Shown here: piece by piece, positions 37,305 to 64,000 of the stretch
Layout of the letters: every line of letters starts with the position of its first letter
How positions within the stretch are numbered: position 1 is the first letter of the stretch
NCBI RefSeq assembly: GCF_003625485.1
Contig: NZ_RAIR01000002.1
Location: 372,001 to 436,000 of the forward strand
Source of the DNA: Butyrivibrio sp. CB08
Lineage (GTDB): Bacteria > Bacillota > Clostridia > Lachnospirales > Lachnospiraceae
Direction of reading: 5' to 3'
Length of the DNA: 64,000 nt
The notes under the pieces: model-generated
What the model saw: only the letters and a program-made list of their open reading frames with translations
Database searches by the model: none
What the model was told of the DNA's origin: nothing
Made by a program: the position numbers and the translations under genes

Positions 37305-37306
37305 AA

Positions 37307-38272
37307 TTACAGCCTCCCTCTTCTTACAAATATCACGATCTCAGAGATCACCATAAGGATCAGCGGATACGCAAAGAAGTAGTAGATATCTCTTTCTACC
37401 TCTGCTCCGGAACCTGACTCAATGATGGTCTTGCTGCTCTCCTTGATAAGCTCAACTGCGCCATCAAGAGCAGAATTGCCGCTGTTCATGTTAAGGTATG
37501 AGATCCCAAGGTCCTCGGCGATCTTGTTGAGGTTGTCCTCATCTATCTTTGATACAGCATCCTTGTGGGTTGAATAATCATAGATATAGCCGTAGCCAAA
37601 GCCCTCTTTCATCTTGCCGCCCTCCGGGCTTCCATAGCCCAGCACAGCACCAGCGTCGATATACTGGGCAAGCTCTGAGTAGTCCACCAGCTCTTTTCCA
37701 TTGGTGATCTCACCGTCACTGATAAAGAACACGATAGTCTTGCGGTTCTCCTTCCTTGCTGAGGAGCGAAGAAGGGCATCAATGTCCTGATAAGCTATGG
37801 AAAGGTCACTTCCCTTGGCATAGTAGCTGTCCGGGGACTCAAAGGTATCAAACAGATCCTTGATGTACTGCATGTCCTGAGTAAAGGGTGACAGCACATG
37901 GGCTGTATCATCGAAGGTCACAAGGCCAAAGTTACTGCCAGCAAGCTCATTGATGATAAGGTTTACGTCTGCTTTGACGCCGCTCATCCTCTCCCTGTGG
38001 CCATTGTAGTCCTGGGCCCACATACTGATGGTGTTGTCCACGATAAATAGAACGTCCAGGTTCTTGGTGGCAAACTCGTACTGGGTCTCCAGCATAACAG
38101 GGCGAAGTCCGATGACAAGCATAAGAACATAGATCACTGTCATCCTGGTCAGGGCTGCGATCTTTTCTGCGGTATTAAATTTATTCCTGATAATGAAGTA
38201 CGCTGTGATGCCAAAAAGGCAGGCGATCACCAGGAGCAGCACTCCAATTGGAAGTATAGGTTTAAGGCTCAT
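37307..38272 (-). CDS. vWA-domain membrane protein (BatB-like)
   Basis: 321 residues. Two N-terminal TM helices, a vWA domain with MIDAS motif VDNTISMWA (DxTxS type) and SDGEITNGKE, and a C-terminal TM helix. The ATG at 38272 overlaps the upstream stop as ATGA; a TTG nine codons earlier is less likely. It probably works with the other vWA protein at the membrane, with MoxR as the ATPase. Confidence 0.85.
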   Translation of the reverse strand: MSLKPILPIGVLLLVIACLFGITAYFIIRNKFNTAEKIAALTRMTVIYVLMLVIGLRPVMLETQYEFATKNLDVLFIVDNTISMWAQDYNGHRERMSGVKADVNLIINELAGSNFGLVTFDDTAHVLSPFTQDMQYIKDLFDTFESPDSYYAKGSDLSIAYQDIDALLRSSARKENRKTIVFFISDGEITNGKELVDYSELAQYIDAGAVLGYGSPEGGKMKEGFGYGYIYDYSTHKDAVSKIDEDNLNKIAEDLGISYLNMNSGNSALDGAVELIKESSKTIIESGSGAEVERDIYYFFAYPLILMVISEIVIFVRRGRL

Positions 38273-39378: not shown

Positions 39379-39866
39379 GACTTTATCACTCCCATAGCCA
39401 CTCTGCAGGAAGCGGCAAAATCTTTGTTTTCAGCCTTCTCGTCCTCAGCAAACTCAGGAACATAGTACTCTTCCATGAGGATATCAAGCTTTCTGATGCC
39501 TATGGCTTTAACCTCTTTTACAGTGAAGGTCTCAACATTGATGCCTGTAACCTCGTGGACAAAGCTCCTTATGATGGCACTAAGCTTTTGGTAGCCATCT
39601 CTCTTTTCAAGCTTGCCTGCGTTGTAATCGTTGAGTAGGACCCCTACCCTGTAGATGTAGTCCTGCTTCATCTTCTGAAGGTTCTCAGGTGTAAGCTTGA
39701 TCTTGCGAAATCTTGGCTTTTCAGCCACAGGTTTCTGTCTGAGGTCAAGTATCTTTTTTACCACATAGATAATAAGCCCAATGGTCAAAAGCCCAATGAG
39801 AAGGGTAACAAGTGCAACAATCCAGCTGTATTCAAATGGCGCCTGAAGTTTAACCGTAGTAACCAT
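39369..39866 (-). CDS. Small membrane protein of the MoxR/vWA operon
   Basis: 165 residues. One TM helix (ALVTLLIGLLTIGLIIYVVKKI), then a cytoplasmic helical domain (PENLQKMKQDYIYRVGVLLN to VKAIGIRKLDILME). In position and layout it matches the DUF4381-like component of MoxR/vWA operons. The ATG at 39866, with AAAGG 8 bases upstream, is chosen over a TTG at 39881; it overlaps the DUF58 gene by 17 bases. Confidence 0.7.
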   Translation of the reverse strand: MVTTVKLQAPFEYSWIVALVTLLIGLLTIGLIIYVVKKILDLRQKPVAEKPRFRKIKLTPENLQKMKQDYIYRVGVLLNDYNAGKLEKRDGYQKLSAIIRSFVHEVTGINVETFTVKEVKAIGIRKLDILMEEYYVPEFAEDEKAENKDFAASCRVAMGVIKSWS

Positions 39867-40734
39867 TTCTATACCTTTCAAGGAGCGCTATAACGCTCTC
39901 TATTATTTCTTCCTGTTTGGAGATCGTTGTCATGCAGGCCCTAAGCTGCTTGCAGGTCAAAGACGTGGACTCAAGGATTTCTTTCCTAAGTCTTACTTCC
40001 TCGTCGTGAAGGGCCTTTGAGTGAGATAAGAAGAACCTTTCATAGCTCTTTTTCTCATTGTCATAGACCTGATCTCCCGTAAGATAGGCATCCTCTATGT
40101 TAAGGATAAGTAAATCGTTGTTGTCAGTTATGCTCCTTACCAGGCCAGGATCCAGCTGGCTAAGTCCCTCGATATCAGTCAAAAGAAATATGATCATCCT
40201 CTTGTGTACCGTGTTAAGGACTTCTTTTATTGTGTCCGTAAGCGATACTTCAGTGTCGCTGTCGAGGCTCTTTTCAAAGTCATAAAGAAGTCTCTCCAGG
40301 TGGTCAGTTCCTGACTTGAACATACTGATAGTAGCGTGGTTTGCTCCTGAGTAGGACAGAGCAAAGTCAGCGCCGTTTCTGCCAACTATATATGCAAGAG
40401 TTCCGAAGGTCATCATCATGAGCTCAGCCTTGGCTTCTCCAGCAGCAGTATCTCCCTGCATCTTAAGACCTCTGTCGCAGATAAACATCACGTTGTGTCT
40501 TCTGTCTGTCATATATCTGCGCACAAGAATAGAACCCATGCGCGATGAACTCTTCCAGTCGATATCGTGAACATCATCACCATAGGTGTATTCTTTGAGA
40601 TCATCAAACTCCATGCTGCGGCCTCTGTGAACAGAGTGGAAATCGCCGTCAAGGATGTTTGATGTCTTTCTCTTTGTATAAAGAGCTACTGCTCTTCTTA
40701 TTTTTGAAAGATACTCATAATCAATCTTCATCAT
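39850..40734 (-). CDS. DUF58 domain-containing protein
   Basis: 294 residues with the DUF58 signature: FHSVHRGRSMEFDDLKEYTYGDDVHDIDWKSS and VRRYMTDRRHNVMFICDRG, a vWA-like fold. DUF58 proteins accompany MoxR ATPases and are thought to be their clients or adaptors. The ATG overlaps the MoxR stop by 4 bases. Confidence 0.88.
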   Translation of the reverse strand: MMKIDYEYLSKIRRAVALYTKRKTSNILDGDFHSVHRGRSMEFDDLKEYTYGDDVHDIDWKSSSRMGSILVRRYMTDRRHNVMFICDRGLKMQGDTAAGEAKAELMMMTFGTLAYIVGRNGADFALSYSGANHATISMFKSGTDHLERLLYDFEKSLDSDTEVSLTDTIKEVLNTVHKRMIIFLLTDIEGLSQLDPGLVRSITDNNDLLILNIEDAYLTGDQVYDNEKKSYERFFLSHSKALHDEEVRLRKEILESTSLTCKQLRACMTTISKQEEIIESVIALLERYRNGYYG

Positions 40735-41735
40735 GGTGCCTTCACTGAATTAACAAGAGCATCTATTACTGACTCAACAGGCACATTGTCTGCAACTGCC
40801 AGGTAGTTAAGGCCGATCCTGTGGCGAAGAACCTGATGACTTACCTGCTTGACATCCTCTGGTGTTACGTAGGTTCTGCCCTGCATAAGAGCTGCTGCCT
40901 TGGCCATCTTAAGGAAGGCGATGGAAGCTCTTGGGCTTGCTCCTATTCTTATGTACTTGGCAAGTTCAAGGCCCTGTATCTGATTGGCTCTTCTTGATGC
41001 CACAACTATGCTTGAGATGTACCACTTGATGGCGTCATCTACGTATACTCTCTCAGCGATATCCTGAAGCTTGTCCACATCCTTGATAGTAAGGACAGGG
41101 GGATCAACTCTAGAGATTGCTCCCGTCTCTATCCTTGAAAGAATCTCAACCTCCTCACCTGCTGTAGGATAGGTGATTACTTCCTTTATAAGGAATCTGT
41201 CAGTCTGAGCCTCGGAAAGAGGATATGTACCCTCCTGCTCGATAGGGTTCTGGGTTGCGATAACAATAAAGATATCCTCTGGCATGTGATAGCTCTTACC
41301 GCCAATTGTTACCTGCTTTTCCTGCATGGCTTCCAGCATAGCTGACTGAGTCTTGGCACTTGATCTGTTGACCTCGTCAAGAAGAACGAAGTTGGCAAAT
41401 ACTGGTCCAAGGATGTTCTCAAACTTGCCAGTTGCCTGGTTGTAGATCTGAGTTCCGATGATATCTCCAGGAAGAAGGTCTGGTGTGCACTGGATCCTTG
41501 CAAACTTGCCATCCACTGCATCGGAAATAGCCTTTGCTGCTGTAGTCTTGGCAAGTCCAGGTACAGACTCAATAAGGATGTGACCATCGGCCACTATGGC
41601 TCCAACCAGGGAGAACTTAAGCTGCGCCTGGCCAACCACCTTGTTCTCAAAATAGTCTGAAAGCTTTTTTAATACCTCCTGGGAGTAGGCAAACTCCTCT
41701 TCGGTGATGTTATTATTTGCACTTGTTACTTCCAT
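40731..41735 (-). CDS. MoxR-family AAA+ ATPase
   Basis: 334 residues. Walker A is ESVPGLAKTT (the MoxR variant GxAKT), Walker B FVLLDEVNRS, sensor 1 ATQNP, and the arginine-finger region ERVYVDD onward. MoxR ATPases act as chaperones for vWA proteins. It heads the six-gene operon. GGAGA precedes the ATG. Confidence 0.92.
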   Translation of the reverse strand: MEVTSANNNITEEEFAYSQEVLKKLSDYFENKVVGQAQLKFSLVGAIVADGHILIESVPGLAKTTAAKAISDAVDGKFARIQCTPDLLPGDIIGTQIYNQATGKFENILGPVFANFVLLDEVNRSSAKTQSAMLEAMQEKQVTIGGKSYHMPEDIFIVIATQNPIEQEGTYPLSEAQTDRFLIKEVITYPTAGEEVEILSRIETGAISRVDPPVLTIKDVDKLQDIAERVYVDDAIKWYISSIVVASRRANQIQGLELAKYIRIGASPRASIAFLKMAKAAALMQGRTYVTPEDVKQVSHQVLRHRIGLNYLAVADNVPVESVIDALVNSVKAP

Positions 41736-44304: not shown

Positions 44305-45738
44305 TCATACGTTAATCTCAGCTGTAAGGCCAAGGTCTTCCTTGTTAGCATCAAGGATAGGCTTAACCACTTCATTTAAGAACTTCTCAACCTGGTGAGC
44401 GCTGCATCCTACATACTTCTTAGGATCCATTGATGCCTTAAGCTCTTCAAGTGTGAGTGGGAATGCAGGGTCTTCTGCGATAAGCTCAAGGAGGTTGTTG
44501 TCCTTACCCTCAACCTTGACAGTCTTACCTGCTTCCATGGAGAGCTCTCTGATCTTCTCATGAAGCTCCTGTCTGTCACCACCTGCCTTAACTGCATCCA
44601 TCATGATATTCTCTGTTGCCATAAATGGAAGCTCAGCGAGCATGTGCTTTTCAATAACCTTAGGATAAACAACAAGTCCGTCTACAACATTGAGACAAAG
44701 GTCCAGAACACCGTCTGTTGCAAGGAAGCCCTCAGGAATTGAAAGGCGCTTGTTGGCTGAATCATCGAGAGTTCTCTCAAACCACTGTGAAACCTCTGTA
44801 ATAGCCGGGTTAAGTGTATCGATGATCACATATCTTGAAAGGGAGCAGATTCTCTCACTCCTCATAGGATTTCTCTTGTAAGCCATAGCTGATGAACCGA
44901 TCTGGCTCTTCTCAAATGGCTCCTCAACTTCCTTAAGGTGCTGAAGAAGTCTGATATCCTGAGCCATCTTGGTAGCTGATGAACAGATGCCTGCAAGAAC
45001 ATTTACAACCTTCATGTCGATCTTACGGCTGTAGGTCTGTCCTGAAACTGCCATGCATCCCTTAAATCCAAGCTTGTCAGCAAGCATTGGATCAAGCTTG
45101 TCAACCTTGGTAAGGTCTCCGTCAAAGAGCTCAAGGAATGAAGCCTGAGTACCAGTTGTTCCCTTTGAGCCAAGAAGCTTCATGTTATCTAAAACGTAGT
45201 CCAGATCCTCAAGATCAATGGTAAAATCCTGAAGCCACAGGCACGCTCTTTTACCTACTGTTGTCGGCTGTGCAGGCTGGAAATGAGTAAATCCAAGGGT
45301 TGGCTGATCCTTGTACTCATCAGCAAATTTAGAAAGAGCAGCGATGACATTAACGAGCTTCTTGCGAACAAGCTTCAAAGCCTCTGTCATAACGATGATA
45401 TCTGTGTTGTCACCAACGTAGCAGCTTGTAGCGCCAAGGTGGATGATTCCCTTAGCCTTGGGGCACTGAACACCGTAAGCGTAAACGTGGCTCATAACAT
45501 CGTGACGAACTTCTTTTTCCCTTGCCTTGGCAACATCATAGTTGATGTCATCCTTGTGGGCCTTAAGCTCTTCAATCTGCTCATCTGTGATAGGAAGACC
45601 AAGGTCCTGCTCAATCTCAGCAAGAGCGATCCAGAGTCTTCTCCAGGTCCTGAACTTCATATCAGGGGAAAAGATATACTGCATCTCTTTACTTGCATAG
45701 CGCTCTGATAGTGGGCTTAGATAGCGGTCTGTACTCAT
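44305..45738 (-). CDS. purB: Adenylosuccinate lyase
   Basis: 477 residues. The fumarase-superfamily signature is [17 protein letters not shown], and the N-terminus [14 protein letters not shown] is that of the eukaryote-like PurB group. It cleaves SAICAR and adenylosuccinate in purine synthesis. It is on the same strand as, and about 12 kb downstream of, a divergent PurA-like gene, but in another operon. GAGGAG precedes the ATG. Confidence 0.95.
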
Positions 45739-47970: not shown

Positions 47971-49269
47971 TTATACCTCTATAGTCTGCTCCCAGACTTT
48001 GCCAGTTGCAGGGAACAGTTCTCCAAATCCCCTGTCTGTGACTTTTACGCTCACTTCACTTACGCTGTTCATGGCAATTGCCAGATGAAGTCTGGTGGTG
48101 CCAGCAGGTCTTTTTACAAGACCGTCCAGATAGAGCTGAACAACCTTGGGCCTTCCGCCGGTAAGTGGTGTGACTTCTATGTTCAAAATGCCGCTCTGGT
48201 CCATGATGATGTCAAGGCTGGTCTCAGCCTCGTACCAGTTAACTCCGGCATCAAGAAGGGCGTGATAAACCTCTGTTCCGCACTTAAGGAGCTTCATTCC
48301 AAGATTGGCCTTAAGCTTGTCCTCACCAAGGAATACAAACTTGCCTGCATTGCCTGTGGGACTCACCCTCTCTCTTGCGGCGATGCTGGCGCCCTTGCTA
48401 AAGAGGTTGTTGCCCTGGAATACACGCCTTGTCCTGCAAAGGAACTCTAATGACCTCTTGGTCCACTTCTCATGGAAGCCGTCACCAAGAAGGAATACCG
48501 TTGATATGATCTTCTCCTGGCAGACCTTCTGCATGATGGTCAGAAACTCATCATCTAGTCTCTCACAGGTCTTATGGAAAAGAGCTGCATCCTTTGGGAA
48601 TCCGGTTGGAAGCATCAGCTCGTCAAAGTGCTCTACATCTATGGTTGCAACCACGGGCTTGGTGTTGGTGTTTAAGGTCATCTTAAACACAGACAGCTCC
48701 TCAAGGTCGTAGTCACAGGCAAGGATCGTGTGATGTGTCAGGTCATCAGGCTGATAGAGCATGTAGTTGTAAAAGCTCTCCTCATGGCTCTGATAGAAAA
48801 TGTTGGAAGTCTTAAGCTCAAGGGCAGCTGTCACAGCATTTAAAACCTGCACCATCCTGTGATCGAGGCTTCTTGTGGTAAACATGATGGCATCCACGTT
48901 GTCCATGGAAACCTCAAGGGAGAGAAGTGATAAGCTTCTTTTAACAAACAGAGTCAAAAGAGCTATCGGATCGTACTCAGCTTCTCCAACCATCACAGGC
49001 TTGCCGTCCTTGGCAGCTGCAATAAGCCCCTCTACAGCAGTTCCATCTCCGTCTTCAATGTGCCTTACAGCCTCTTTACCGTAAAACCACTGATTGACGT
49101 CCTTTCTTTTGCACAGGACAGTAGGAATATTATAAAGTTCGCTTCCTGCCAGAACTGACAGGGTTTCAGGCATGTCTGCATCTGACGCCAGGTAGCTGAT
49201 CTGGGATACTTTTTCACCCAGATCATACCCCAGGACAAATCGCCTTGAGTCAGAGTTACCAAAAAGCAT
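47971..49269 (-). CDS. DUF5716 family protein
   Basis: 432 residues resembling DUF5716: FVLGYDLGEKVSQISYL near the N-terminus, DAIMFTTRSLDHR, TILACDYDLEELSVFK and FLLGDGFHEKW. The phosphate-loop-like segments suggest an actin/HSP70-type ATPase fold, which is an inference. It lies 6 bases after the DUF5717 gene, the usual partner in Clostridia. Role unknown. Confidence 0.7.
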   Translation of the reverse strand: MLFGNSDSRRFVLGYDLGEKVSQISYLASDADMPETLSVLAGSELYNIPTVLCKRKDVNQWFYGKEAVRHIEDGDGTAVEGLIAAAKDGKPVMVGEAEYDPIALLTLFVKRSLSLLSLEVSMDNVDAIMFTTRSLDHRMVQVLNAVTAALELKTSNIFYQSHEESFYNYMLYQPDDLTHHTILACDYDLEELSVFKMTLNTNTKPVVATIDVEHFDELMLPTGFPKDAALFHKTCERLDDEFLTIMQKVCQEKIISTVFLLGDGFHEKWTKRSLEFLCRTRRVFQGNNLFSKGASIAARERVSPTGNAGKFVFLGEDKLKANLGMKLLKCGTEVYHALLDAGVNWYEAETSLDIIMDQSGILNIEVTPLTGGRPKVVQLYLDGLVKRPAGTTRLHLAIAMNSVSEVSVKVTDRGFGELFPATGKVWEQTIEV

Positions 49270-49275
49270 TGTCTA

Positions 49276-52200
49276 TCATCCTTCCCTGCTGTCTTCTGTA
49301 TCCATAGGAGAAAACAGCTTGTCACAAATAAACTTCTTTCTAAAATACTCCCCGATAAGTGAGTCCACTGTATCGTAGTCCTGCAGGGTCTCACCGATCA
49401 TAATGTCATTTATAAGACTGAATCTTCCTGGAAGTGTACCACCTACGATGTCGCTCTTTTGGATGGTTCCGCTCTCAGTAAGGATCTCCTCTTCTCCGTT
49501 TTGCTCAGTGATGTAGTACTGCATCTGCTCTCCGAAGAACAGGATGAAATCTGCAACATATATGCCATCGTACATCTGACGCATCTCGACTACCTTGTAC
49601 TCATTGTCAGCGTCATTATCAAGTCTGTAGTGCACCTTGCAGTGGGCGTCAGGACCTGACCTGTACTCGAGCATGGTCTTGTCTATGAACTGCACCATAT
49701 CTGGCAGGACATCTGCGTACTCCATGTAGAAAGAGAAGTACACATCCTTGGAAAGAAGGCTCCTTAGGAACTTCGCTGCGATCTCCTCGTTGACCTCTTC
49801 CTCGGACTTCCTGTCGTTAGCATAGTAGCGAAGGTAAGCCAGTGCACAGACTTCAGAAAGCGGCATGTTCTCAAGTGCCAGCTTCTCAATTCTGTCAAAT
49901 ATGAACTTATCTGTCACAGTGCCCTTTACAAAGCTGTCGTAGGCACTCTGTGAAAGGAATGCCATCTCAACGTCAGCATTGGCACCGCTCTTAACGTACT
50001 TCTTGAAGATCTCGATCTTCTCACCGATGAAGGCTCCGCTGTAAAGAGCCTGCACAAGGATCCTCTCACTAAGAGAATAGGTATCAAGACCAAAGGACTC
50101 AGCAGCCCTCCAGATCTCTCTCATCTCCCTCAAGGTTCCGTTGTAGTGGGTGATCAGGAAGTTAAGTAGCTGCTCGTCGTACTTGCCTGATCTGAAAGCG
50201 TAGTGGGCAATCTCCAGCTCTTTTGCCTCGGGCTCTAATGCTCCTCTGTCGAGGAGACGGACGCAGAGCTTAAGGATCACCTTGGCGTCAATTCCGTGAC
50301 ATCCAAAGGTCTTTACCCACTCCATTGCCTTCTCGTAGAGGCCTGACATTACCATGAGCTCTAATATCTCGGCTCTTCCGGCACTTTCAAACTCCTCCGG
50401 GTCTATGTTCACAAGGTACTCAGTGAGCTGCCTTGTAAAATCGTTGTCGTAATAGAATCTGATGAGGTTACCTGAAATCTCGTTCCTATAGCTCTTTCTG
50501 ACAAGCTCGGAACCAGCCAGGTCTCTGTATCTGCCCACATTATCAAGGTCGATGGTGTAGGCATTTTTGCCAAGGTCGCACAGGAATAGATCCAGGTTCT
50601 CCTTGCCCTTCTGGATGTAAGGGATTGCATAGGCTGAGAGTTTGCCAGGGAGCATCAGCTTGGTATTGGTGTACGGGATGCTGGCTGCATACCTGTTGCC
50701 CTCGTGATCAGCTAAAAGAACTGTGTAGTCACTTCCATATAACGGAACGTAGCAGACTCCGTCTACCACGGGGAAGCGCATTGCGCCCTCGCACTTGTCA
50801 TACACAACGCAGACACCTACGATCCTGCTGTCGCTGACTCTGATCTCTGAGGTGTAAAGAGCTGACAGCACCTTGGATGCATTGGCTGCGTCAACCATCT
50901 GCCTTGTGAGCATGTTTTTGTACAGATAGCCAAGGTCTCTTGTGACTCTGCCCTTATCAAGCTGGGCCATAAGGAACTTCTCTATCTGTGGAACATATGA
51001 ATCGTAGAGCTCAGGATACTCTTCCTTGTGCTCGTGAACATATCTGTAGAGGATAGCGTTCTTGTCGTATTCAAGGTCGCTCTGATATGAGAAGTACATA
51101 AGGACCATCTTGCTGATGTCGCAGGGAAGAAGCCCATTCTCATCGGTGTAGATGGACATCATGTAGTACTCATACAGTCTTGTGATACGAAGCTCGCTGT
51201 CGACGCCTCTCTTGTACCACTCGAAGGCAAAGGCATCTGTCTTGCCGCCCTTGATAAGAAGAGAAACAATGGCTTCAAGCACATCTCCGCTCTCTCTTAT
51301 CTCGTAGCAGGCCTTTAAGATCCTAAAGAGTCTCATGTCAAAGTTTCTGACTCTCATGGACAGATAAACTATCTGATCAATGAGGTTTAAGGATATTATC
51401 TGTTTCTTGGCGCCGTACTCAAGAACGTACAACTCGTAGTTATCAAGCCTTGTTAAGATCGAAGGTGAATCATTTAAAAGATTCATGGCCTCCAGATACA
51501 GGATCGGACTCCTGCAACCAAAGGTGAACTGCTCTTCAAGCATCATCCACTTTCTGGGGCTGCTTGTGGTGTACTCCTCAGCTATATAGAGAAGGAGCCA
51601 TGCAATTCTCCAGTTATCAGGGTTTCTCCTGAATATTCCCTCAAGCCTTTCTGACACGTCGTTGATGTAGGCGTCCTCTCTGCTGCAGAGAGTAGAAAGG
51701 TAGAGATAGTAGCTATAAAGAGTATCTCCATCGGCGTCCAGTGCCTCTTTTTCCGCCTTATCAAGGATCCACTTACCCTCGTTGATCCTGCCTGCGGTGA
51801 TGTAGTACTGGGCAGTGTATAGTCTTGTCTCAAGATTCTTGTCATCGATGGCATTCATCTTGGAGATGATCTTGCCAGTCTCAGAAAGCCAGGCTCTTGA
51901 GGTTATTTTTTTGCAGCTGAAATTCTCATAGACTCTTACAAGGTCCACAAGGAGTCTCTTCATCTCCTGGTAATCCCCTGTCAGATGCTTGTCAGAAAGA
52001 TGGACAATGGCTGTTACAGGGAAAATGACCTCTGTAAAATTGTTGTAGAAACGGATTCTTCCGTAATTGTTGCCCTCGTGGAGCTGGTCGGTACGAAGAC
52101 GCAGCTTGATCCTTGCTGTGGTGCCGGTAAAGTCGTCCTCTGAGATCTCATACTTATCTAGAGTTATGAAGTCTCCGTCCACATCTGCAAAGAGGTGGGT

Positions 52201-52878
52201 ATAACCCCATCCGTTCTTGGTTATGATAATGCCATGATCAGCGTTAAGTCCCGTGTAGTCGATCTGCAGCGACTCCTGGTCCATAACGTAGGCAACAGGC
52301 TGTTTCTTGTTGATGGAGATGAGAAACTCCTCAACATTCTGCTCGTTGTCAGGATCCTCAGACAGTCCCCTGTATAAGCTCTCGTACTGAGCATCATTGC
52401 CCTTGAAAACGGAAATAAAGTCAGACGAATAAAAGAGGGCCACTGCCTCATCCCAGTCTGTCTTGGCTAAATTTGCAAAATGAAATAGGTTCTTGATATC
52501 ACCAAGGCTAGAGGCCACAACCTGCGACCTTACGGTGACAACGAAGGGGAGAACATACTCTCCCTGATTAGATATGACGCGGAATTCCCCCTTAAGGACG
52601 TCCCCATGGGACATTCCAAGAGAATTGAATCTGTAAGATACTTCATAGGGGGATCCGGATACGTCTGGTGTAATAACTTCCATCCTAAGATCGGTGGAAG
52701 TAACTTTGCCTTCTAAAAATGCGTTTTCTGGGCCAAAGATGGTAAAAGAGCCTGTGGCCAACTCCCCAGGTCCAAGGTTGAGTTCTATACGTGCAGTCGA
52801 AAAATCAAGGTTTCTCTGCGTATAAACATATTTTCCCTGAAGAAGCTGATCAATAATCTCTCTCACGACACACCCCAA
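49276..52878 (-). CDS. DUF5717 family protein
   Basis: 1200 residues. The N-terminus is beta-rich and immunoglobulin-like (LNLGPGELATGSFTIFG, GEFRVISNQGEYVLPFVVTV), followed by a long helical TPR-like superhelix (WRIAWLLLYIAEEY and similar units) and a beta-rich C-terminus. No signal peptide is evident, so it is probably cytosolic. DUF5717 and DUF5716 co-occur in Clostridia, function undescribed. It sits 28 bases after the MacB-like permease gene, so it may be co-transcribed with the efflux trio. Confidence 0.72.
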   Translation of the reverse strand: MGCVVREIIDQLLQGKYVYTQRNLDFSTARIELNLGPGELATGSFTIFGPENAFLEGKVTSTDLRMEVITPDVSGSPYEVSYRFNSLGMSHGDVLKGEFRVISNQGEYVLPFVVTVRSQVVASSLGDIKNLFHFANLAKTDWDEAVALFYSSDFISVFKGNDAQYESLYRGLSEDPDNEQNVEEFLISINKKQPVAYVMDQESLQIDYTGLNADHGIIITKNGWGYTHLFADVDGDFITLDKYEISEDDFTGTTARIKLRLRTDQLHEGNNYGRIRFYNNFTEVIFPVTAIVHLSDKHLTGDYQEMKRLLVDLVRVYENFSCKKITSRAWLSETGKIISKMNAIDDKNLETRLYTAQYYITAGRINEGKWILDKAEKEALDADGDTLYSYYLYLSTLCSREDAYINDVSERLEGIFRRNPDNWRIAWLLLYIAEEYTTSSPRKWMMLEEQFTFGCRSPILYLEAMNLLNDSPSILTRLDNYELYVLEYGAKKQIISLNLIDQIVYLSMRVRNFDMRLFRILKACYEIRESGDVLEAIVSLLIKGGKTDAFAFEWYKRGVDSELRITRLYEYYMMSIYTDENGLLPCDISKMVLMYFSYQSDLEYDKNAILYRYVHEHKEEYPELYDSYVPQIEKFLMAQLDKGRVTRDLGYLYKNMLTRQMVDAANASKVLSALYTSEIRVSDSRIVGVCVVYDKCEGAMRFPVVDGVCYVPLYGSDYTVLLADHEGNRYAASIPYTNTKLMLPGKLSAYAIPYIQKGKENLDLFLCDLGKNAYTIDLDNVGRYRDLAGSELVRKSYRNEISGNLIRFYYDNDFTRQLTEYLVNIDPEEFESAGRAEILELMVMSGLYEKAMEWVKTFGCHGIDAKVILKLCVRLLDRGALEPEAKELEIAHYAFRSGKYDEQLLNFLITHYNGTLREMREIWRAAESFGLDTYSLSERILVQALYSGAFIGEKIEIFKKYVKSGANADVEMAFLSQSAYDSFVKGTVTDKFIFDRIEKLALENMPLSEVCALAYLRYYANDRKSEEEVNEEIAAKFLRSLLSKDVYFSFYMEYADVLPDMVQFIDKTMLEYRSGPDAHCKVHYRLDNDADNEYKVVEMRQMYDGIYVADFILFFGEQMQYYITEQNGEEEILTESGTIQKSDIVGGTLPGRFSLINDIMIGETLQDYDTVDSLIGEYFRKKFICDKLFSPMDTEDSREG

Positions 52879-56567: not shown

Positions 56568-57788
56568 TCACGCGAGTTCCCAAAAGGAGTCAAATACCAT
56601 AGTGATCTCTTTCACCATCTGAAGCTCGTTCGTTGTCATATTGGCCGCTCTGTCTGGAAACACGATTCTGCCTTTAGTTTCCGAAAGGTGGGTCACTGCA
56701 CAGGTAACTCTTGGTCTGTAATCAAGGATCCTAAGATCCTGAATGACTGGATCCATGAACTCGTAGACCGATGGATGTGGCGCATAGCGTATGGCTCCCT
56801 GCCATGGATTGGTCACATTGGTGGTGTCTTTTCTTACATTTCCAAGGTGCCTTCTCCTGCACTCGTGGGGCAGATCTCCAGCTCCGTGCCTGGTGACATA
56901 GCTCCTTGTCACATAGACCACTTCATCGATTCTTAGCCCATATCTGTTAAGGAAGGCTGCAGGGTTCGTAAGACCCGTTCTTGAGCCTGTAACGTGGGGC
57001 GCAAACCTCTTGTTCTCTGAATCAAGAAGAAGTCCCTGTCCGCTCTCAAAGACCACATTGTCATAATTATTAAGAAAAGAGACAACGTCGTCCTCTACAA
57101 TCTCCACAAGTTCTGAGTTTCTCTTCATCTCCGTTGCTGCGTTCTCTATCACAGTATCGTTTAGCATATCCGTAAGATACTGGGAGGATGTCTTTTCCCC
57201 AAAAAGTTCTCTTAATCTTGGGATATAGTAGCTCTCCCGGATATCCAGAAGTCTCTTAAACAGCTCTCTCTCTTGAAGATTCTTAACATCCTTAACAGTT
57301 AATGTCACGCCGCTTTCCACTCTAAGGAACGTCTCATAGATTCCCATTCCGCAGCTTCCGTGACGCTCTTTTCCCCTTGACTCCTCAAGAGCCATGTTAA
57401 AGAGAACATCTAAAACCGTAGTCACGTTTGTGGTGGGCAGAGCGTAGATCCTGGGAGTAAGGCCAGATACTTTTGAAAAAGAGTCCACCTCTTCCCTAAG
57501 CTTAAAAAGATCCGGGAAAAAAGTGTCGATCCACAAAGTGTCAGCACCATTAAAGCTGCCAGATCCCACTTCGTGAAAGATGAATCTCTTTTCACTGTCA
57601 CAGGCATCTGGCAGTTCTAAAAAGGCTACCGACTCGGGGCCAGCTATAACGGTGTGACCAGACTGAGCGCCGCCGTTGTGACGGATCACAAGGCTCTTTC
57701 CCAGTCTGCCTGAGAGAAGGTGAGTAACTCTCCCCTTTCCCTCGTCACCAAAATTTTTTCCAATAACTACGTAGATTTTTGGAGCCAT
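56568..57788 (-). CDS. Divergent adenylosuccinate synthetase-like protein
   Basis: 406 residues related to PurA. NFGDEGKGR (13-20) holds the catalytic Asp and P-loop; NGGAQSGHTVI holds the catalytic His (GHT). SRTGLTNPAAF and RHGAGDLPHE are recognisable but differ from housekeeping PurA (for example TRVGAGPFPTE), and overall length is shorter than the usual 420-430. It is co-transcribed with vWA, kinase-like and NHLM export genes, not purine genes, so a specialised nucleotide or peptide modification is likely. Its substrates are not known. The start abuts the vWA stop at 57788. Confidence 0.8.
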   Translation of the reverse strand: MAPKIYVVIGKNFGDEGKGRVTHLLSGRLGKSLVIRHNGGAQSGHTVIAGPESVAFLELPDACDSEKRFIFHEVGSGSFNGADTLWIDTFFPDLFKLREEVDSFSKVSGLTPRIYALPTTNVTTVLDVLFNMALEESRGKERHGSCGMGIYETFLRVESGVTLTVKDVKNLQERELFKRLLDIRESYYIPRLRELFGEKTSSQYLTDMLNDTVIENAATEMKRNSELVEIVEDDVVSFLNNYDNVVFESGQGLLLDSENKRFAPHVTGSRTGLTNPAAFLNRYGLRIDEVVYVTRSYVTRHGAGDLPHECRRRHLGNVRKDTTNVTNPWQGAIRYAPHPSVYEFMDPVIQDLRILDYRPRVTCAVTHLSETKGRIVFPDRAANMTTNELQMVKEITMVFDSFWELA

Positions 57789-58681
57789 TAAAAGAAGAAT
57801 CCTTTTTTCTTTGTCTTAAACACAAGGTCCTCAACTGCTCGTCTTACTATAGGCTGTTTCATGCCACTCCACTGGTTAACAGCCTCCTCAAGACCCATTC
57901 CGTTCACCATCTGCATTACTGTGATGATAACTTCTGGAATTGATGAAACATTCTGCTTGCTAAGGGTAATGATCCTGCCTGGAATAGCTTCGCTAAAGTG
58001 TACAGGCTTGTTGTAGCTGTCTGAGAGGTTGATGTGGAAGATCTCGTACTTCTCTCCTGCAATCTCAGCAAGCTTCTTTGATGAAAATCTCTCCGGATCA
58101 TCTCCGAAGATTCCTGCTATATCTGTTCCTCTTACCTCTGGATGACAGTCTGCATCACCGATGGTAAACAGGAATCCTTTCTTGCCTCTCTTTTCAAAGG
58201 AATCGATCTTGGTATGCCTTGCAGCAAAGTACCATAAAAGCTCAAAGTCCTCAGGTGAATCTCCACCTCTTCCCTCAAGCCACAGCTCAAGGAGCTGCTC
58301 AGCGATCCTGATGTCTGACTCAAACTGTGTTACCTGAAGTGGCGCCCTGTCTGAAACGTCGCCAACTGCTGCAAAAAGAAGCTGTGGATCATCAACAGGC
58401 TTGGTTGAGTAGAGCTTCATCATGGTCTCGTGAAGGGAGTTCTTGGCAATCTCCTCTGACAGATATCCCATGGAGCCTGTGACGTCCAGTCCTATGATAA
58501 TTGGGGTTGAGTTTGGATGGTCCTCTGAATCCATTGCCTCACGGGCATTTACAAACAGAGGGTTGAACTTCTCCTCCATCTCCACTTTTCTGAAGATCTG
58601 GGAAGCTGTAGATTTCTCCGAAATTCCTGCAGAGTCACGCAGCCTGCTCCAGTCCGCACTTGTGTAACTTCCGTATCCCAT
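57788..58681 (-). CDS. vWA-domain protein of the NHLM-linked operon
   Basis: 297 residues. The N-terminus is GSYTSADWSRLRDSAGISE. The MIDAS motif is DVTGSMG (66-72), with GGDSPEDFELLWYFA and GFLFTIGDADCH further on. No TM helix, so cytosolic. Proteins of this type occur in diverse bacteria next to kinase-like or stress-type proteins. It probably binds a divalent metal and a partner protein in this operon. It is preceded by a kinase-like gene. Confidence 0.82.
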   Translation of the reverse strand: MGYGSYTSADWSRLRDSAGISEKSTASQIFRKVEMEEKFNPLFVNAREAMDSEDHPNSTPIIIGLDVTGSMGYLSEEIAKNSLHETMMKLYSTKPVDDPQLLFAAVGDVSDRAPLQVTQFESDIRIAEQLLELWLEGRGGDSPEDFELLWYFAARHTKIDSFEKRGKKGFLFTIGDADCHPEVRGTDIAGIFGDDPERFSSKKLAEIAGEKYEIFHINLSDSYNKPVHFSEAIPGRIITLSKQNVSSIPEVIITVMQMVNGMGLEEAVNQWSGMKQPIVRRAVEDLVFKTKKKGFFF

Positions 58682-58706
58682 TTGTTAATACTCCTCCTAA
58701 AAAAAC

Positions 58707-59651
58707 TTAATAATTCATTTTAGTAAAACGCCTTCCCCCGAAGGCATCTTCTATCACTTTATCCCAGTTCTCGAAATCCTTGTAGGCATCGCAGGTTGGC
58801 TTATCCTTAAGGAATTTCTCAAAGCTTCCAGACTGCTGCCCGGCTTCATATCCAAGGATCATCCTGGCAGTTTTTCTGATTGCCACAAGGTCTGTATTAG
58901 GCGATGGCAAAAGAGAAGTCTTTTTGTCTGTTACTGCCCACCAGGCCCCAAAGAGCATGGCTTCGTGAGTTCGTGGATTTATACAGATGGTATCAGGGCA
59001 GATATCCCCGTGACAAATACCGCTGTATTCAAGGACGCAGCAGATATTCTCAAGCCTGGAGATGATCCAGGCCACATGCTCTTTTTCCAAAGCTCCAAAG
59101 AGTTCCAGTGGATAGAACTCCTCTGGCTTATTGAACACCAGTAGCATTCCGCCATCTGAAAGAACAATGGTTCCAGAATACTGAGGGAAGCACTTCTCAA
59201 GGTGCTTTAGATCAGCCTGTGGGAAATTGAGCTTTCCCAGCCCCGCAATAGCCTTGGATGTAAGGTTTCCGTGAAGCTCTGCTGTATTATTTATATCAGT
59301 GTGATTTCTAAAATCAGCGGGGAAATGGTAGATCACATTGTACCTTGTAAAGTAGGATGAAACCTGTCCATTCTTTGTCTTATAAAGGTAGCTTACTACC
59401 ACTTCTTCGCCGTCTTTGGATTTAAGCTTAAGCTGTTCAGCTCTGTCCCACATCCTGTCTGTCTTGTCAGGATCAGGATCTGCATCAGAACAGGCCTTTA
59501 GGTACTCCAGCATATGGATTCTGAACTTTTTGTACTCAGCCAGTTCTGCGTCTGAGAAATTCTCTTTTGTTCCGCAATAGGGACATACCAGGTCCCCGGA
59601 TGAATGCACCACCATCTCGGCGCTGCAGTTTGGACATTTGTAACTTATCAT
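58707..59651 (-). CDS. Zn-ribbon protein with a kinase-like domain
   Basis: 314 residues. A four-Cys ribbon (C6, C9, C23, C26: CPNC and CPYC) is followed by a linker and a protein-kinase-like fold. The catalytic-loop motif is HGDICPDTICI (214-224; HxD changed to HGD), but the metal-binding DFG is LFG (233-235). The P-loop is not evident. It may be a pseudokinase or an atypical kinase. It ends 3 bases from the ABC2 gene and precedes the vWA gene, so it could regulate the exporters or the peptide. Confidence 0.72.
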   Translation of the reverse strand: MISYKCPNCSAEMVVHSSGDLVCPYCGTKENFSDAELAEYKKFRIHMLEYLKACSDADPDPDKTDRMWDRAEQLKLKSKDGEEVVVSYLYKTKNGQVSSYFTRYNVIYHFPADFRNHTDINNTAELHGNLTSKAIAGLGKLNFPQADLKHLEKCFPQYSGTIVLSDGGMLLVFNKPEEFYPLELFGALEKEHVAWIISRLENICCVLEYSGICHGDICPDTICINPRTHEAMLFGAWWAVTDKKTSLLPSPNTDLVAIRKTARMILGYEAGQQSGSFEKFLKDKPTCDAYKDFENWDKVIEDAFGGRRFTKMNY

Positions 59652-59654
59652 GTT

Positions 59655-61826
59655 TTACAGTTGCTGCCTTTCTACTAATTCGCTGAAATAGCCCTTCCTG
59701 GCAATAAGTTCGTCATATGTACCCTCTTCAACTATCTTGCCGCCATCCATAACAAGGATCCTGTCGCAGTTCTTGATTGTTGAAAGCCTGTGGGCGATTA
59801 CGATCCTGGTGCACTTAAGACCGTCAAGGGCTTCAGATATCTGTCTCTGGGTAATGTTATCAAGGGCGCTGGTAGCCTCATCAAATATCAGGATCTTGGG
59901 CTTGCTTGCCACAGCTCTGGCAATCAGGATCCTCTGCTTCTGGCCTCCGGAGATTCCTCCCTGACCCTCAGCAATGATGGTGTTCATGCCCATAGGCATT
60001 GCCCTGATATCATCGGCGATTCCCGCCATCTCAGCTGCCTCCCAGGCCTCATCCTTCGTGAGCTTCTCGGAAGCAATGGCTATGTTTCTGAATATATCTC
60101 CGTAGAAGAGCTTGCCATCCTGGATAACAGAACCTATTTTACGCCTAAGAGACTTAAGGTCAATCCTCTCAAGATCTTTTCCGTCATAGAAAACTGCACC
60201 TTTCTCAGGCTTTTCAAACCCAAGAAGAAGCCTTACCAAAGTGGATTTACCGCATCCGGTCTTACCTACGATGGCAACGTACTCTCCGGCCTTGATCTTG
60301 ACTGAGAAGTTTTCAAGGATGTAAGGTGCCTGCTCGTTGTACTTGAAGTAAACACCGTTCATCTCGATACCGCCGCTTATTCTTGTGACCATGTCTTTCC
60401 TTAAGGTCTTCTCTGGCTCAGTCTTAAGGATTGGCTCAGCCATCTCCAGAACAGGCTTGATCTTGGCCACTGAAAGAGAAGCTGATGAAAGCTGTGAAAA
60501 CGCTGCGAACATGGTTGTATAGGCGATATTAAAAGCAAAGTACTCAGGAGCTGACACGCCAGATTTAATGGCGATACCATAGAGTACTACTGTACCTATC
60601 AGCGAAATTCCGGTATTGATAACACCGCTTATCTTAAGGAAGAATGGCGGGTTGTACTGAAGAGCTGCGCCCTCTGCGTACTGATTAGCCCACTTTGCAA
60701 ATATTCTTTTCTCTGCGCCTGCAAGTTTGATCTTCTGAATGCCGTTGATGATAGCGAAGGTAAGGCCACTCTCCTTGGCAAGGAGCTCCATGTGCCTCTT
60801 GGAAATACCCATCTGCATCAGAACGGAAATTGTGGAAAAGAGCACCGTAAGGAACATGATCACAACGGATGGCACCACCAGCCTTGGTGCATAGTGAAAG
60901 ATCTGGAATAAGTACACCAGTGAAAATGCTGATGAAAATCCAAAAGCAAACACATCCTGAATGATGATTTCACAGATCTCGTTGATACTTGAGGATCTGC
61001 TTGATAATTCACCGGCGCTGTACTGCCTGAAGAACGTAGCAGGAAGTGTCAGGATCCTCTGCATAACCGCCTGCTCAACAGGGATTGTAACCTTCCACTT
61101 TACTCTTGCCAAAACTGCTGTCTCCAGCGCATCAAATAGAGTTGTAAAGAAGATGGTCACTATGATGGCAATAACAAGGGCCATATAAAGGCTGTAGTTT
61201 TTGGTATCAAGAACTGTTCCTGTCAGCAATTGGGATGCATAAGGAAGGATCATGGTAAACAGCACCAAAATCAGAGCTATAACTGCAACTGACAGATAAT
61301 CAAAGAGCGTAAGCCTTCTCTTCATGAAGCCTATAAGGTCAGGGATTCCCAGCTTTTTAAGAGGCAGAGGCTCATAGAAAGCCACTGCATCCTCTGAAAA
61401 CTGCTGTGCCTCTTTTTTGCCAACTCTCACCTTTTTGCCAGTGTCAGGGTCATAGTAGAAATACCTCGCAAACCCGATTGGGAAAAGAGCTATCGGCATA
61501 TTGTCTTCTTTGAAGAAGCAGATGATAGGCCCAAAGCAGTCACTAAACCACTTTCCCTCCAGCTTGATATTGGCCTTCATCATACCAACTGTGCCTACCG
61601 CATACTCTATCTGATCCAGCGGGTCAGTAATATTGTGGGGTACCTCTACTCTTGGATAGTTGTAGTAGTAGAAAACCTCATCAATGGCATTTTTGATGTT
61701 GGCCTTTAAATCTTTTCTTTTGACAGGCTCGCCAAGTACCCTATGAGCAATATTGTCATAGGAATCCCTGAAAAGCTCGTCATCCATTCTTTTTCTTTGT
61801 CTTATTTGTTCGTCAAACCAGCCCAA
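59655..61826 (-). CDS. NHLM-type exporter, ATP-binding/permease subunit (ABC2)
   Basis: 723 residues. An N-terminal domain of about 150 residues lacks peptidase motifs (FFPIGFARYFYYDPDTGKK-like). Six TM helices follow, then an ATPase with Walker A GKTGCGKST, signature ISGGQKQRILIARA and Walker B ILIFDEATSALD. This fits TIGR03797, the second ABC subunit of NHLM peptide secretion systems. It pairs with the C39-bearing ABC1 upstream. The substrate peptide gene is not adjacent in the window. Confidence 0.82.
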   Translation of the reverse strand: MGWFDEQIRQRKRMDDELFRDSYDNIAHRVLGEPVKRKDLKANIKNAIDEVFYYYNYPRVEVPHNITDPLDQIEYAVGTVGMMKANIKLEGKWFSDCFGPIICFFKEDNMPIALFPIGFARYFYYDPDTGKKVRVGKKEAQQFSEDAVAFYEPLPLKKLGIPDLIGFMKRRLTLFDYLSVAVIALILVLFTMILPYASQLLTGTVLDTKNYSLYMALVIAIIVTIFFTTLFDALETAVLARVKWKVTIPVEQAVMQRILTLPATFFRQYSAGELSSRSSSINEICEIIIQDVFAFGFSSAFSLVYLFQIFHYAPRLVVPSVVIMFLTVLFSTISVLMQMGISKRHMELLAKESGLTFAIINGIQKIKLAGAEKRIFAKWANQYAEGAALQYNPPFFLKISGVINTGISLIGTVVLYGIAIKSGVSAPEYFAFNIAYTTMFAAFSQLSSASLSVAKIKPVLEMAEPILKTEPEKTLRKDMVTRISGGIEMNGVYFKYNEQAPYILENFSVKIKAGEYVAIVGKTGCGKSTLVRLLLGFEKPEKGAVFYDGKDLERIDLKSLRRKIGSVIQDGKLFYGDIFRNIAIASEKLTKDEAWEAAEMAGIADDIRAMPMGMNTIIAEGQGGISGGQKQRILIARAVASKPKILIFDEATSALDNITQRQISEALDGLKCTRIVIAHRLSTIKNCDRILVMDGGKIVEEGTYDELIARKGYFSELVERQQL

Positions 61827-61847
61827 TTTTACGCTCCTAGTGTATAC

Positions 61848-64000
61848 TTAGTCGTTTGTTACCAGTTCGCTGTAGTAGCCGCCAAGTTTAATAAGTTCAT
61901 CGTGGGTTCCACGCTCTACGATCTCTCCCTTATCAAGAACTATGATCTCATCACTGTCTCTTATGGTTGAGAGTCTGTGGGCGATGATGATAAGTGTGAT
62001 TCCTCTGTCCTTAATGGCCTTAACTACCTCATACTCAGTCTTGGCATCAAGGGCACTTGTGGCTTCATCAAGAATGATAATGGATGGGTCCATGGCCAGG
62101 ACTCTGGCAATCTCAAGGCGCTGTCTCTGTCCGCCGGAGAGATCCTTTCCACCTTCAGAAAGCTTGTACTGATAGCCTGAAGGCTTGGCGATGATATCGT
62201 CGTGGATCTGGGCATCTCTTGCAGCCATGATAACTTCGAAGTCCTCGATCGACTCATCCCACATCTTGATGTTGTTCTCTATTGTGTCCTCAAAGAGGAT
62301 GATATCCTGATCAACAACGGCAACTGAACCTGTAAAGGCACTTCTGTCAATCTCAGAAATTGATTTGCCATCAAATAAGATCTCGCCGCTCCAGGGTTTA
62401 TACAGTCCTGATATCAGCTTACTCATAGTGGATTTTCCGCATCCACTTCCGCCTACGATGGCGACTCTTTTACCCGTTGTAAGATTCATGGAAAAGTCCT
62501 TGATAAATGGCTCATCAAGAATTGAATATCCAAAGGTAACATTCCTTATCTCAACGTTTCCGCTGAGCTTCTTAAACTCGTGGCTGTCGTCGTCCCCTCT
62601 GTCAGCGAATTCGTCAGTCTTGTACTCCATTACGTCCTCGACACGCTCCATCTCGGTACGCATCTCAAGAAGGGTCTGTCCAGCATTGGTAAGAGTAGTT
62701 GCAGGTTCCATGAAGGAAGCAAGAATTCCCTGGAAACCTGTGATCATACCGATGGTGAACTGACCGTGCATGGCAAGATATACGCCGGCAAAGGTGATAC
62801 CGTAGTTAGCAAGCTTGGAGATCATGTTTGGAAGAGCACCCATATAGGTGTCATTTCTCATGAACTGAACTTCCTTCTCATCAACCTTGGCCTTTAAGTT
62901 TGCCCAGGTTTCAAAGAATCCGTTCTCTGCTCCGCTGGCCTTGATGGTCTCGATCATGCTGATACCTGAAAGTGCGGTTGTTGCCAGCTTGCCGCTGTCT
63001 ATCAGCATTCCGCGGGTAACATTTATCCTGTGATCAGAAATGATCTTGGACAGGATAAGGTTTATGAGAACCGTAGTCACACCAAGGATTGTAAGTGGAA
63101 CCGAATATCTGATAAGAACTACCAGATAGAACACCATCATTGCTGTGTTCAGACACAGAGGAGCAAAGGTGTTAACGATGGCGCTGGCGATCTCTTCATT
63201 GGTAGTCTGTCTCATCATCAGGTCACCAGACATTCTCTGGGAAAAGAACTCCATAGGAAGTCTTAGTACCTTCCACATAAAGGAGGTACTACCGTTAATT
63301 GCAAGCTTTCCATCGATCTTCAGTGAATATACTGCAGATATCCAGGACACAATGATCTGGACAAAAGCAAGGAATCCTAAAAGGATCAGGAACGGGTCAG
63401 CGTTTTCAAATTCTGTGCCCGTAAGAAGTTTATCCATAAAGTACTCTGACATAAATGGATTAACTACGCTAAATACATATGAAAAGATTGTCATGGCAAC
63501 AGTAAAGATAACTGCTGTCCTGGCATCCTTAAGTCTCTTGCCGGCGAATTCCAGCACACTCTTTCTCTTACCGCCTGGCTGGAAGTTTTCAGTCACATCA
63601 AACATAAGGGCTATTCCGGTATAGCCCTTGGCAAAGTCCTCTATTGGCATTGCAATGCTGCCCCTTGAAGGGTCGTTGACATAGGCCTTGTTGCCTCTAA
63701 AGCCATTGAGCACAATAAAGTGATTGTAATCCCAATGCACTATGCAGGGGAACATGCCCTTTTCCCTAAGAGCATCCAGTTCAAGCCTGTATCCGTTGGC
63801 AGTAAGCCCATACTTCCTGGCAGCCTTGAGGATATTTTTGGCATTTGATCCGTCCCTTGAAACACCACAGTCAAGTCTCATCTGCTCAAGAGCGATCCAC
63901 CTGCCATAATATGCAAGGATCATAGACAGACATGCAGCGCCGCACTCAAGGGCCTCCATCTGCATAACTACTGGTACTTTTGCAACTCCATTAGAAACTA
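61848..64000 (-). CDS. NHLM-type exporter, C39 peptidase/ABC subunit (ABC1), 5' end missing
   Basis: The frame is open to the right edge, so the true start lies outside; the Met at 63965 is internal (VAKVPVVMQME precedes it). The C39 peptidase has Cys in ECGAACLS, His in DYNHFIVLNG and Asp in VNDPSRG, a complete catalytic triad. Six TM helices and an ATPase with GGSGCGKST, LSGGQRQRLEIARV and IIILDEATSALD follow. It matches TIGR03796: cleavage of the leader and export of the peptide. Next gene downstream is ABC2, 21 bases away. Confidence 0.85.
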   Translation of the reverse strand, partial: VSNGVAKVPVVMQMEALECGAACLSMILAYYGRWIALEQMRLDCGVSRDGSNAKNILKAARKYGLTANGYRLELDALREKGMFPCIVHWDYNHFIVLNGFRGNKAYVNDPSRGSIAMPIEDFAKGYTGIALMFDVTENFQPGGKRKSVLEFAGKRLKDARTAVIFTVAMTIFSYVFSVVNPFMSEYFMDKLLTGTEFENADPFLILLGFLAFVQIIVSWISAVYSLKIDGKLAINGSTSFMWKVLRLPMEFFSQRMSGDLMMRQTTNEEIASAIVNTFAPLCLNTAMMVFYLVVLIRYSVPLTILGVTTVLINLILSKIISDHRINVTRGMLIDSGKLATTALSGISMIETIKASGAENGFFETWANLKAKVDEKEVQFMRNDTYMGALPNMISKLANYGITFAGVYLAMHGQFTIGMITGFQGILASFMEPATTLTNAGQTLLEMRTEMERVEDVMEYKTDEFADRGDDDSHEFKKLSGNVEIRNVTFGYSILDEPFIKDFSMNLTTGKRVAIVGGSGCGKSTMSKLISGLYKPWSGEILFDGKSISEIDRSAFTGSVAVVDQDIILFEDTIENNIKMWDESIEDFEVIMAARDAQIHDDIIAKPSGYQYKLSEGGKDLSGGQRQRLEIARVLAMDPSIIILDEATSALDAKTEYEVVKAIKDRGITLIIIAHRLSTIRDSDEIIVLDKGEIVERGTHDELIKLGGYYSELVTND

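Follow-up and report, generated by a model that had tools for sequence, protein, structure and literature searches.

A three-gene PurA-like, vWA and pseudokinase cassette adjoining an NHLM-type exporter pair in Butyrivibrio sp. CB08

The stretch of DNA analysed here (the window) comprises 64,000 nucleotides (nt) of the rumen-type gut bacterium Butyrivibrio sp. CB08 (contig NZ_RAIR01000002.1, contig C19 in our numbering, positions 372001-436000) and belongs to a genome of 3.54 Mb that is 99.6% complete. At its right-hand end lie five tightly packed minus-strand genes, which encode an NHLM-type pair of ATP-binding cassette (ABC) exporter subunits (ABC1 and ABC2), a zinc-ribbon kinase-like protein (Kin), a von Willebrand factor A (vWA) protein, and a divergent relative of the adenylosuccinate synthase PurA (Table 1). 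All five open reading frames (ORFs) of an earlier annotation made from the letters alone, hereafter the original prediction, were present, with gaps of -1 (PurA-like/vWA), 25 (vWA/Kin), 3 (Kin/ABC2) and 21 nt (ABC2/ABC1), and AGGAG-type sites precede the vWA and ABC2 genes. Judging by this spacing, the five genes are probably co-transcribed. The start of ABC1 was located at L002:11011, corresponding to about window position 64010, some 10 nt beyond the right edge. The comparative analyses described below indicate that the run is composed of two units joined by history, namely the exporter pair and a three-gene mobile cassette, which came together in one small lineage. The closest relatives of the window cassette were found in Butyrivibrio records.

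Table 1. Features of the window discussed in the text, with positions counted from its first nucleotide.
Feature	Position	Strand	Basis or remarks
PurA-like gene, 406 residues	56568..57788	-	PF00709, phrog_1211, conserved residues, trees
vWA gene, 297 residues, MIDAS-type DxTxS	57788..58681	-	N-terminal MGxGSY..DW segment conserved
Zn-ribbon pseudokinase (Kin), 314 residues	58707..59651	-	N-terminal CxxC...CxxC ribbon; predicted kinase fold lacking conserved catalytic residues
NHLM-type ABC2 exporter subunit, 723 residues, TTG start	59655..61826	-	TIGR03797
NHLM-type ABC1 with C39 peptidase domain, 720 residues	61848..64000, past window edge	-	TIGR03796, PF03412
PurB	44305-45738	-	TIGR00928, 407 bits, cut-off 326.2
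DUF5716 and DUF5717 pair (DUF5717, 1200 residues)	47971-52878	-	
Second vWA system: MoxR-type AAA, DUF58-like, vWA and TPR genes	36498-41735	-	named by eye

The assignment of the first two genes to an NHLM-type exporter pair was upheld. ABC1 scored 881.4 bits against TIGR03796 (cut-off 853.3) and 122.9 bits against PF03412, and ABC2, for which TIGR03797 was by far the best family, remained narrowly below the cut-off (703.9 against 709.4 bits). The arrangement resembles the NHLM/NHLP bacteriocin exporter pairs in that an ABC1 with a C39 peptidase above the curated cut-off adjoins ABC2, and differs from them in the slightly low ABC2 score and in a genome with neither an NHLP nor a Nif11 leader over its cut-off, these being the two leader types searched: NHLP (TIGR03793) gave zero matches genome-wide, and the best Nif11 match (TIGR03798) reached 17.5 bits against a cut-off of 32.3. 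A precursor peptide gene had been expected past the right edge of the window; none was recognised, and upstream of ABC1 we found a divergent formate/nitrite transporter gene (L002:11212-11994) instead. The neighbours of seven other NHLM pairs from the genus were identified by eye and include Nif11-like peptides, a radical SAM fragment, and sigma-factor-like and STAS-like proteins. One genus-mate carries an NHLM pair in a stretch (L178:1202-8777) that also encodes a sigma-factor-like protein, part of a radical SAM protein and four double-glycine peptides of Nif11-like type, all named by eye.

According to the original prediction, the three remaining genes form a regulation or modification module dedicated to the exported peptide, and conservation of the joint neighbourhood had been set beforehand as the test of that claim. 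We compared 93 loci with a PurA-like gene, composed of the best 80 of 111 from a scan of species genomes, 12 from 200 genomes of the family, and the window itself; L033 (genome G178), a weak second match resembling ordinary PurA, was left out before the count, and at least two pairs among the 93 represent one contig twice (L082/L023 and L067/L031). When all ORFs were considered, every one of the 93 loci had the PurA-like gene, 90 had the vWA gene, 81 had Kin, and 80 had the complete trio. The order is Kin, vWA (at times in two or three copies), PurA-like, and among the 90 loci with vWA the last two genes share 4 nt in 44 and 1 nt in 14. Seven of the 12 loci without Kin have less than 610 nt of upstream sequence. 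Kin and PurA are separated by a tandem of two or three vWA genes in L071, L072, L075, L077, L084, L085, L087, L089, L090, L095 and other loci, which often belong to Ruminococcus or Oscillospiraceae records; natural fusions among vWA, Kin and PurA were not found.

The exporter pair (matches above 1,400 bits) was situated upstream of Kin only in the window, L034, L035 and L036, that is, in 4 of the 93 loci; where 4.4 kb or more of sequence was available upstream of the cassette, as in 68 loci, it adjoined the trio in four and was missing in 64. Other ABC matches near the cassette reached at most 206 bits, and no further fixed neighbour family emerged, the next commonest cluster being a mixed ABC group present in 30 loci at scattered positions. 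The exporter was also missing in the annotated phage and plasmid cassette loci examined. Within the genus, the vWA gene was detected in 16 of 79 genomes and ABC1 in 49 (at E 1e-150; 47 above the cut-off), the two being adjacent in four (G000, G624, G627 and G669), while in the other 12 vWA-bearing genomes ABC1 lay on a different contig or was not found. In two sister species (G616 and G625), the corresponding site is likewise occupied by the exporter: their ABC1 proteins are 80% and 78% and their ABC2 proteins 75% and 72% identical to the window pair, and the same five flanking genes (76-89% identical) lie on one side, with another gene replacing the formate/nitrite transporter. The stretch fetched from these two genomes contained none of the three cassette genes, nor was there any vWA match genome-wide, so either the exporter came first or the trio was lost, and in both cases the units are not bound together. 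In favour of a trio that modifies or regulates the exported peptide, the distance between ABC2 and Kin is 3-4 nt in all four genomes with the junction, and genes so spaced are probably read together. Nevertheless, the exporter-free loci, the trio-free sister species, the different neighbours of the other seven NHLM pairs and the lack of an NHLP/Nif11 leader over the cut-off in the genome make such a role highly unlikely. Since the trio is kept without the exporter and the exporter without the trio, the proposed dedication of the module to that peptide does not hold, and we consider the trio very probably independent of the exporter. The prediction of a single three-gene module thus stood, while its dedication to the exporter was refuted by the neighbourhoods of the orthologues.

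The protein encoded by the last gene of the run passes the superfamily model PF00709 (104.1 bits, cut-off 27) and falls far below the five PurA equivalogs listed (47-85 bits, cut-offs 368-700; for instance, 64 against 395.55 for TIGR00184), as the original designation as a divergent PurA implied. Its score against the PurZ model was 33 bits (cut-off 300), and against phrog_1211, labelled '2-aminooxy adenylosuccinate synthetase' in PHROG, 157.5 bits. The P-loop GDEGKG and the residues D15, H45 and Q251 align to GDEGKG, Asp13, His41 and Gln224 of PurA. Across 89 bacterial and 149 viral rows, D15, K18, H45 and Q251 were retained in 99-100% and E16 in 97-100%, the catalytic Asp being present in 100% of the bacterial and 99% of the viral rows; C146 is likewise family-wide (99% and 87%, respectively). 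In the region of the PurA aspartate loop TTGRxRR, the family displays a loop of the form D-x-T-N-x-x-N-x-[WFY]-Q-x-x-x-R, with bacterial and viral conservation of 100/93% for T323, 99/100% for N324, 99/81% for N327, 99/100% for Q330 and 99/97% for R334. The genome also encodes a normal PurA, whose TTGRPRR and C-terminal NGPAR motifs were unseen in the window protein, the C-terminal third of which aligns poorly. The acceptor loop seems, from the aligned residues, to differ from that of PurA. In PMC8342488, Arg303 of E. coli PurA is tied to both IMP and aspartate, which, together with the changed loop, suggests a changed acceptor.

Two familiar identities can be weighed against these data. The retention of the PurA fold and of the catalytic Asp, His and Gln, together with an ordinary PurB in the window, would fit a spare PurA isozyme. 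Such an identity is improbable given the normal PurA encoded elsewhere in the genome, the low equivalog scores, the two PurA motifs unseen in the protein, and the vWA gene that nearly always adjoins this one (90/93 loci and 157/165 viral loci), a regular neighbour that sets the protein apart from PurA. The window PurB, 11 kb from the PurA-like gene, is probably an ordinary purine gene and could process the product of the PurA-like enzyme. The PHROG label and the presence in phages, which the family shares with PurZ and PurZ0 of Z-DNA phages as PurA relatives, would suit a PurZ-type enzyme making a 2-aminoadenine precursor for modified DNA. In PMC12884076, Asp13 is essential in PurA and replaced by Ser in PurZ, and 147 phage rows among 481 viral relatives found are placed in the PurZ group. 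The window family keeps this Asp and gives no PurZ-level score, and PurZ as its identity, barely conceivable on these grounds, was rejected on account of the retained residue. Judged on motifs and model scores, the PurA-like protein is neither PurA nor PurZ; it represents a further branch of a known family.

The vWA protein matched no Pfam or NCBIfam model and scored 129.9 bits against phrog_2971; its predicted structure is that of a vWA domain, as originally proposed, with the DxTxS motif of a metal ion-dependent adhesion site (MIDAS). Its Gly2 is retained in 98-100% of rows, and the structure model has low confidence at the N-terminus. For Kin, all 50 matches listed by VIA-align were kinases, and a Foldseek search placed a non-kinase TraF N-terminal domain at rank 3, with modest TM-scores (0.27-0.47 by query). 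The HxD Asp was found in 32 of 76 rows and the DFG Asp position in 0 of 76, the positions being assigned by eye. The original kinase-like call consequently holds for the fold and fails for the catalyst, since the catalytic residues are not conserved: by its structure model and residues, Kin is a kinase fold and would not be an active protein kinase. A vWA gene beside a kinase-fold gene is also found in the TerY-P triad of the Ter stress systems, which consists of a vWA protein, a kinase and a PP2C phosphatase. The window differs in that a PurA-like enzyme stands in the place of PP2C and the kinase is a pseudokinase. PP2C was not named among the 25 families listed of the 112 around Clostridial cassettes, where no PP2C model was searched.

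The cassette extends well beyond the Clostridia. Of 50,697 phage records, 206 contained the vWA gene and 220 the PurA-like gene, with mycobacteriophages predominating, followed by Rhizobium and Vibrio phages. In Mycobacterium phage Sebata, the genes are annotated singly as gp260 (kinase), gp261 (vWA) and gp263 (PurA), with gp262 between the last two, and the profiles confirmed all three cassette genes. This phage represents Bixzunavirus, the cluster C mycobacteriophages; the order of kinase-like, vWA and PurA-like genes is that of the window, the differences being the single annotations and the small interposed gp262. Viral kinase-like proteins further differ from the window Kin in the zinc ribbon, which is absent from 58 of 60 rows. 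Scans of IMG/VR returned 369 vWA and 405 PurA relatives, and the best 80 of each, together with five loci from the phage records, made up 165 viral loci, each found through its vWA or its PurA gene. Both genes were present in 157 of these, on one strand in 156 of the 157. After merging by identical proteins, 128 viral units remained, 121 of them with both genes. Kin was present in 40 of these 121 units and a different upstream protein, here called X3, in 45, with no unit carrying both; this mutual exclusion gave a one-sided Fisher p of 3.6e-11, related phages not being independent. X3 is a phage protein of roughly 200-300 residues with a Met-rich tail, unrelated to Kin and encoded upstream of vWA-PurA. 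One example (L181:5222-5932), from a cluster of 47 viral loci, matched neither Pfam nor PHROG. Some of the units with neither Kin nor X3 carry another gene of about 125 codons in the position of the third partner. One viral PurA-like ORF (L235:3403-5925) is split near its GHTV motif by about 440 residues, probably an intein.

Among 72,556 plasmid records, the vWA gene was detected in 21, and eight plasmid loci (seven reached via vWA, one via PurA) spanning two phyla, Alphaproteobacterial and Actinobacterial, contained vWA in 8/8, Kin in 7/8 and PurA in 7/8. In phylum-wide draws, vWA and Kin were found only in the source genome itself (1/398 each), which shows that the cassette is rare outside particular families. 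A careful tree of the PurA-like proteins was calculated from 70 rows, comprising bacterial and plasmid sequences, 15 hand-chosen and 18 random viral sequences, and two canonical PurA proteins as outgroup. In it, the window belongs to a Clostridial clade (23 rows and one viral row, support 100/98) nested within a radiation that mixes viral and bacterial sequences. Six further Lachnospiraceae rows fall outside this clade, and five of the six are placed among viral sequences; the deepest branch is formed by two Actinobacterial plasmid rows, and four viral rows are long-branched. The nesting also appeared in a quicker tree built from 141 rows after thinning at about 60% identity; that tree included the very long row L065_6515, which was left out of the careful one. 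These topologies indicate transfer of the cassette between phages and cells, in one direction or the other. In one cellular locus (L062:10004-12853), the PurA-like ORF continues in frame into a flagellin-like protein, owing perhaps to loss of the stop codon or to the assembly.

Regarding the genes around the cassette, a NUDIX gene lay within 200 nt or overlapped it (as stop-to-stop frames) in 12 loci outside the clade of the window. Five of these belong to Lachnospiraceae (L026, L028, L029, L030 and L032, with L028 and L029 lacking Kin), four to Alphaproteobacterial plasmids (L352, L354, L356 and L357, the last without PurA) and three to Actinobacterial plasmids (L353, L355 and L358); the profile used was built from L352, L353 and L355, which match by construction. 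The eighth plasmid locus, L359, had no NUDIX gene beside the cassette. NrtR proteins are ADP-ribose-responsive repressors of NAD genes, and the NUDIX protein of L352 passed the cut-off of their winged-helix model, NrtR_WHD, which was also carried by 3 of the 96 neighbour proteins scanned, out of 121 listed, around the Clostridial cassettes. The convergent gene of L040-L045 was considered as a further NUDIX candidate and rejected, the L040 and L043 proteins being RsmE-type RNA methyltransferases. Among the phages, NAMPT, NMNAT-NUDIX or NADAR genes were located within about 6 kb of the cassette in 14 of 41 X3-type and 4 of 38 Kin-type units, as counted on the first unit list with one representative identified per neighbour cluster, and the phage neighbour clusters, scanned in the same manner, also include RNA ligase and TROVE genes.

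These phage neighbours, the frequency of the cassette in large phages, and its patchy presence at varied sites in the genus (16/79) would be in keeping with a role in defence or anti-defence, whereby the cassette, during phage infection, changes or eliminates a purine- or NAD-derived signal or nucleotide pool, and bacteria retain it for defence or stress. We consider this possible, although on the unlikely side. A search of PADLOC gave no informative match to the trio, with zero for the PurA-like and vWA proteins and a single match of 11.3 bits (E 0.029) for Kin, and the Clostridial neighbours are ordinary genes, with nine PADLOC families each matching 1 of the 96 proteins. The reading of the Clostridial copies as members of defence islands was dropped as unsupported by this neighbour scan.

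Our overall explanation, which we regard as evenly poised between right and wrong, is a mobile cassette behind the exporter in which a PurA-like nucleotide enzyme works with non-catalytic partners in an NAD/ADP-ribose setting. The exporter pair constitutes the first unit, at a chromosomal site also held in the sister species, and the cassette the second, lying directly behind it in one small lineage and probably read with it. The PurA-like protein is the sole likely enzyme of the cassette. Following the chemistry of its family, it would transfer phosphate from a nucleoside triphosphate to O6 of a 6-oxopurine (inosine-type) nucleotide, and this phosphate would then be replaced by an amine whose binding site differs from the aspartate site of PurA. 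The vWA protein and the pseudokinase, or the Met-rich X3 in many phages, would act as non-catalytic partners that bind, present or regulate, perhaps in a complex of the three cassette proteins. The nucleotide would belong to NAD/ADP-ribose turnover, where we place it because of the neighbouring NUDIX genes (one of them clearly NrtR-type) and the phage NAD-salvage genes. Judged separately, the amination chemistry is a tentative proposal that falls short of an even chance, and the link to NAD is doubtful. From the conserved residues, the cassette most likely makes or removes a modified 6-oxopurine nucleotide, and the nucleotide-derived chemistry suggested in the original prediction is plausible.

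Several observations weigh against this explanation. Both the nucleotide and the acceptor are deduced solely from conserved residues, the alignment to PurA is unreliable around the aspartate loop, and we know of no activity for any member of the cassette families. No NUDIX gene adjoins the cassette in the clade of the window, the nearest one (L066) lying 1.9 kb off on the opposite strand; the L353 protein is below the NrtR_WHD cut-off, and that of L355 is NUDIX only. In the first unit list, the NAD genes accompany X3-type more than Kin-type units, and their presence near the cassette could partly reflect their general frequency in large phages. The third partner is not essential everywhere, since Kin is absent despite sufficient room in L027, L028, L029, L046 and perhaps L059 (1.3 kb), and 36 of the 121 viral units lack both Kin and X3. 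Finally, the short distance between ABC2 and Kin leaves room for some coupling to the exporter in this lineage. A further variant, in which the PurA-like enzyme joins a C6-activated purine nucleotide to a protein amine, possibly the N-terminus of the vWA protein, with the pseudokinase or X3 serving for docking, is in our estimation very improbable. If true, such nucleotide-protein conjugation would make this a third kind of enzyme in the PurA family after PurA and PurZ, and a conjugating enzyme carried by phages, plasmids and gut bacteria.

The cassette is apparently undescribed. No description of the trio appeared among the matches listed in the open PMC literature, and in the database single members are named as PurA-like, Ser/Thr kinase or hypothetical proteins. 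In PMC10892097, an adenylosuccinate synthase and a vWA gene are both among the genes of Vi01-like phages, not as neighbours in the list. The labels PurA and '2-aminooxy adenylosuccinate synthetase' that some phage genes bear, among them genes of cluster C mycobacteriophages, may be wrong, because the family keeps the Asp that PurZ lacks and seems unlike PurA in the acceptor loop. Large phages, plasmids from two phyla and Clostridia of the gut share a compact unit in which a divergent purine enzyme is combined with a vWA protein and a pseudokinase. The constant company of vWA, the exchangeable third partner and the neighbouring NUDIX and NAD genes provide direct and cheap handles on the function of the enzyme.

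Elsewhere in the window, the PurA-like gene is followed 131 nt downstream by genes encoding an ABC ATPase and a membrane-fusion-like protein (both named by eye) and a MacB/FtsX permease. Downstream of these MacB/FtsX-type transporter genes lies the DUF5716 and DUF5717 pair, and a second vWA system, which includes a MoxR-type AAA gene, is also present (Table 1).

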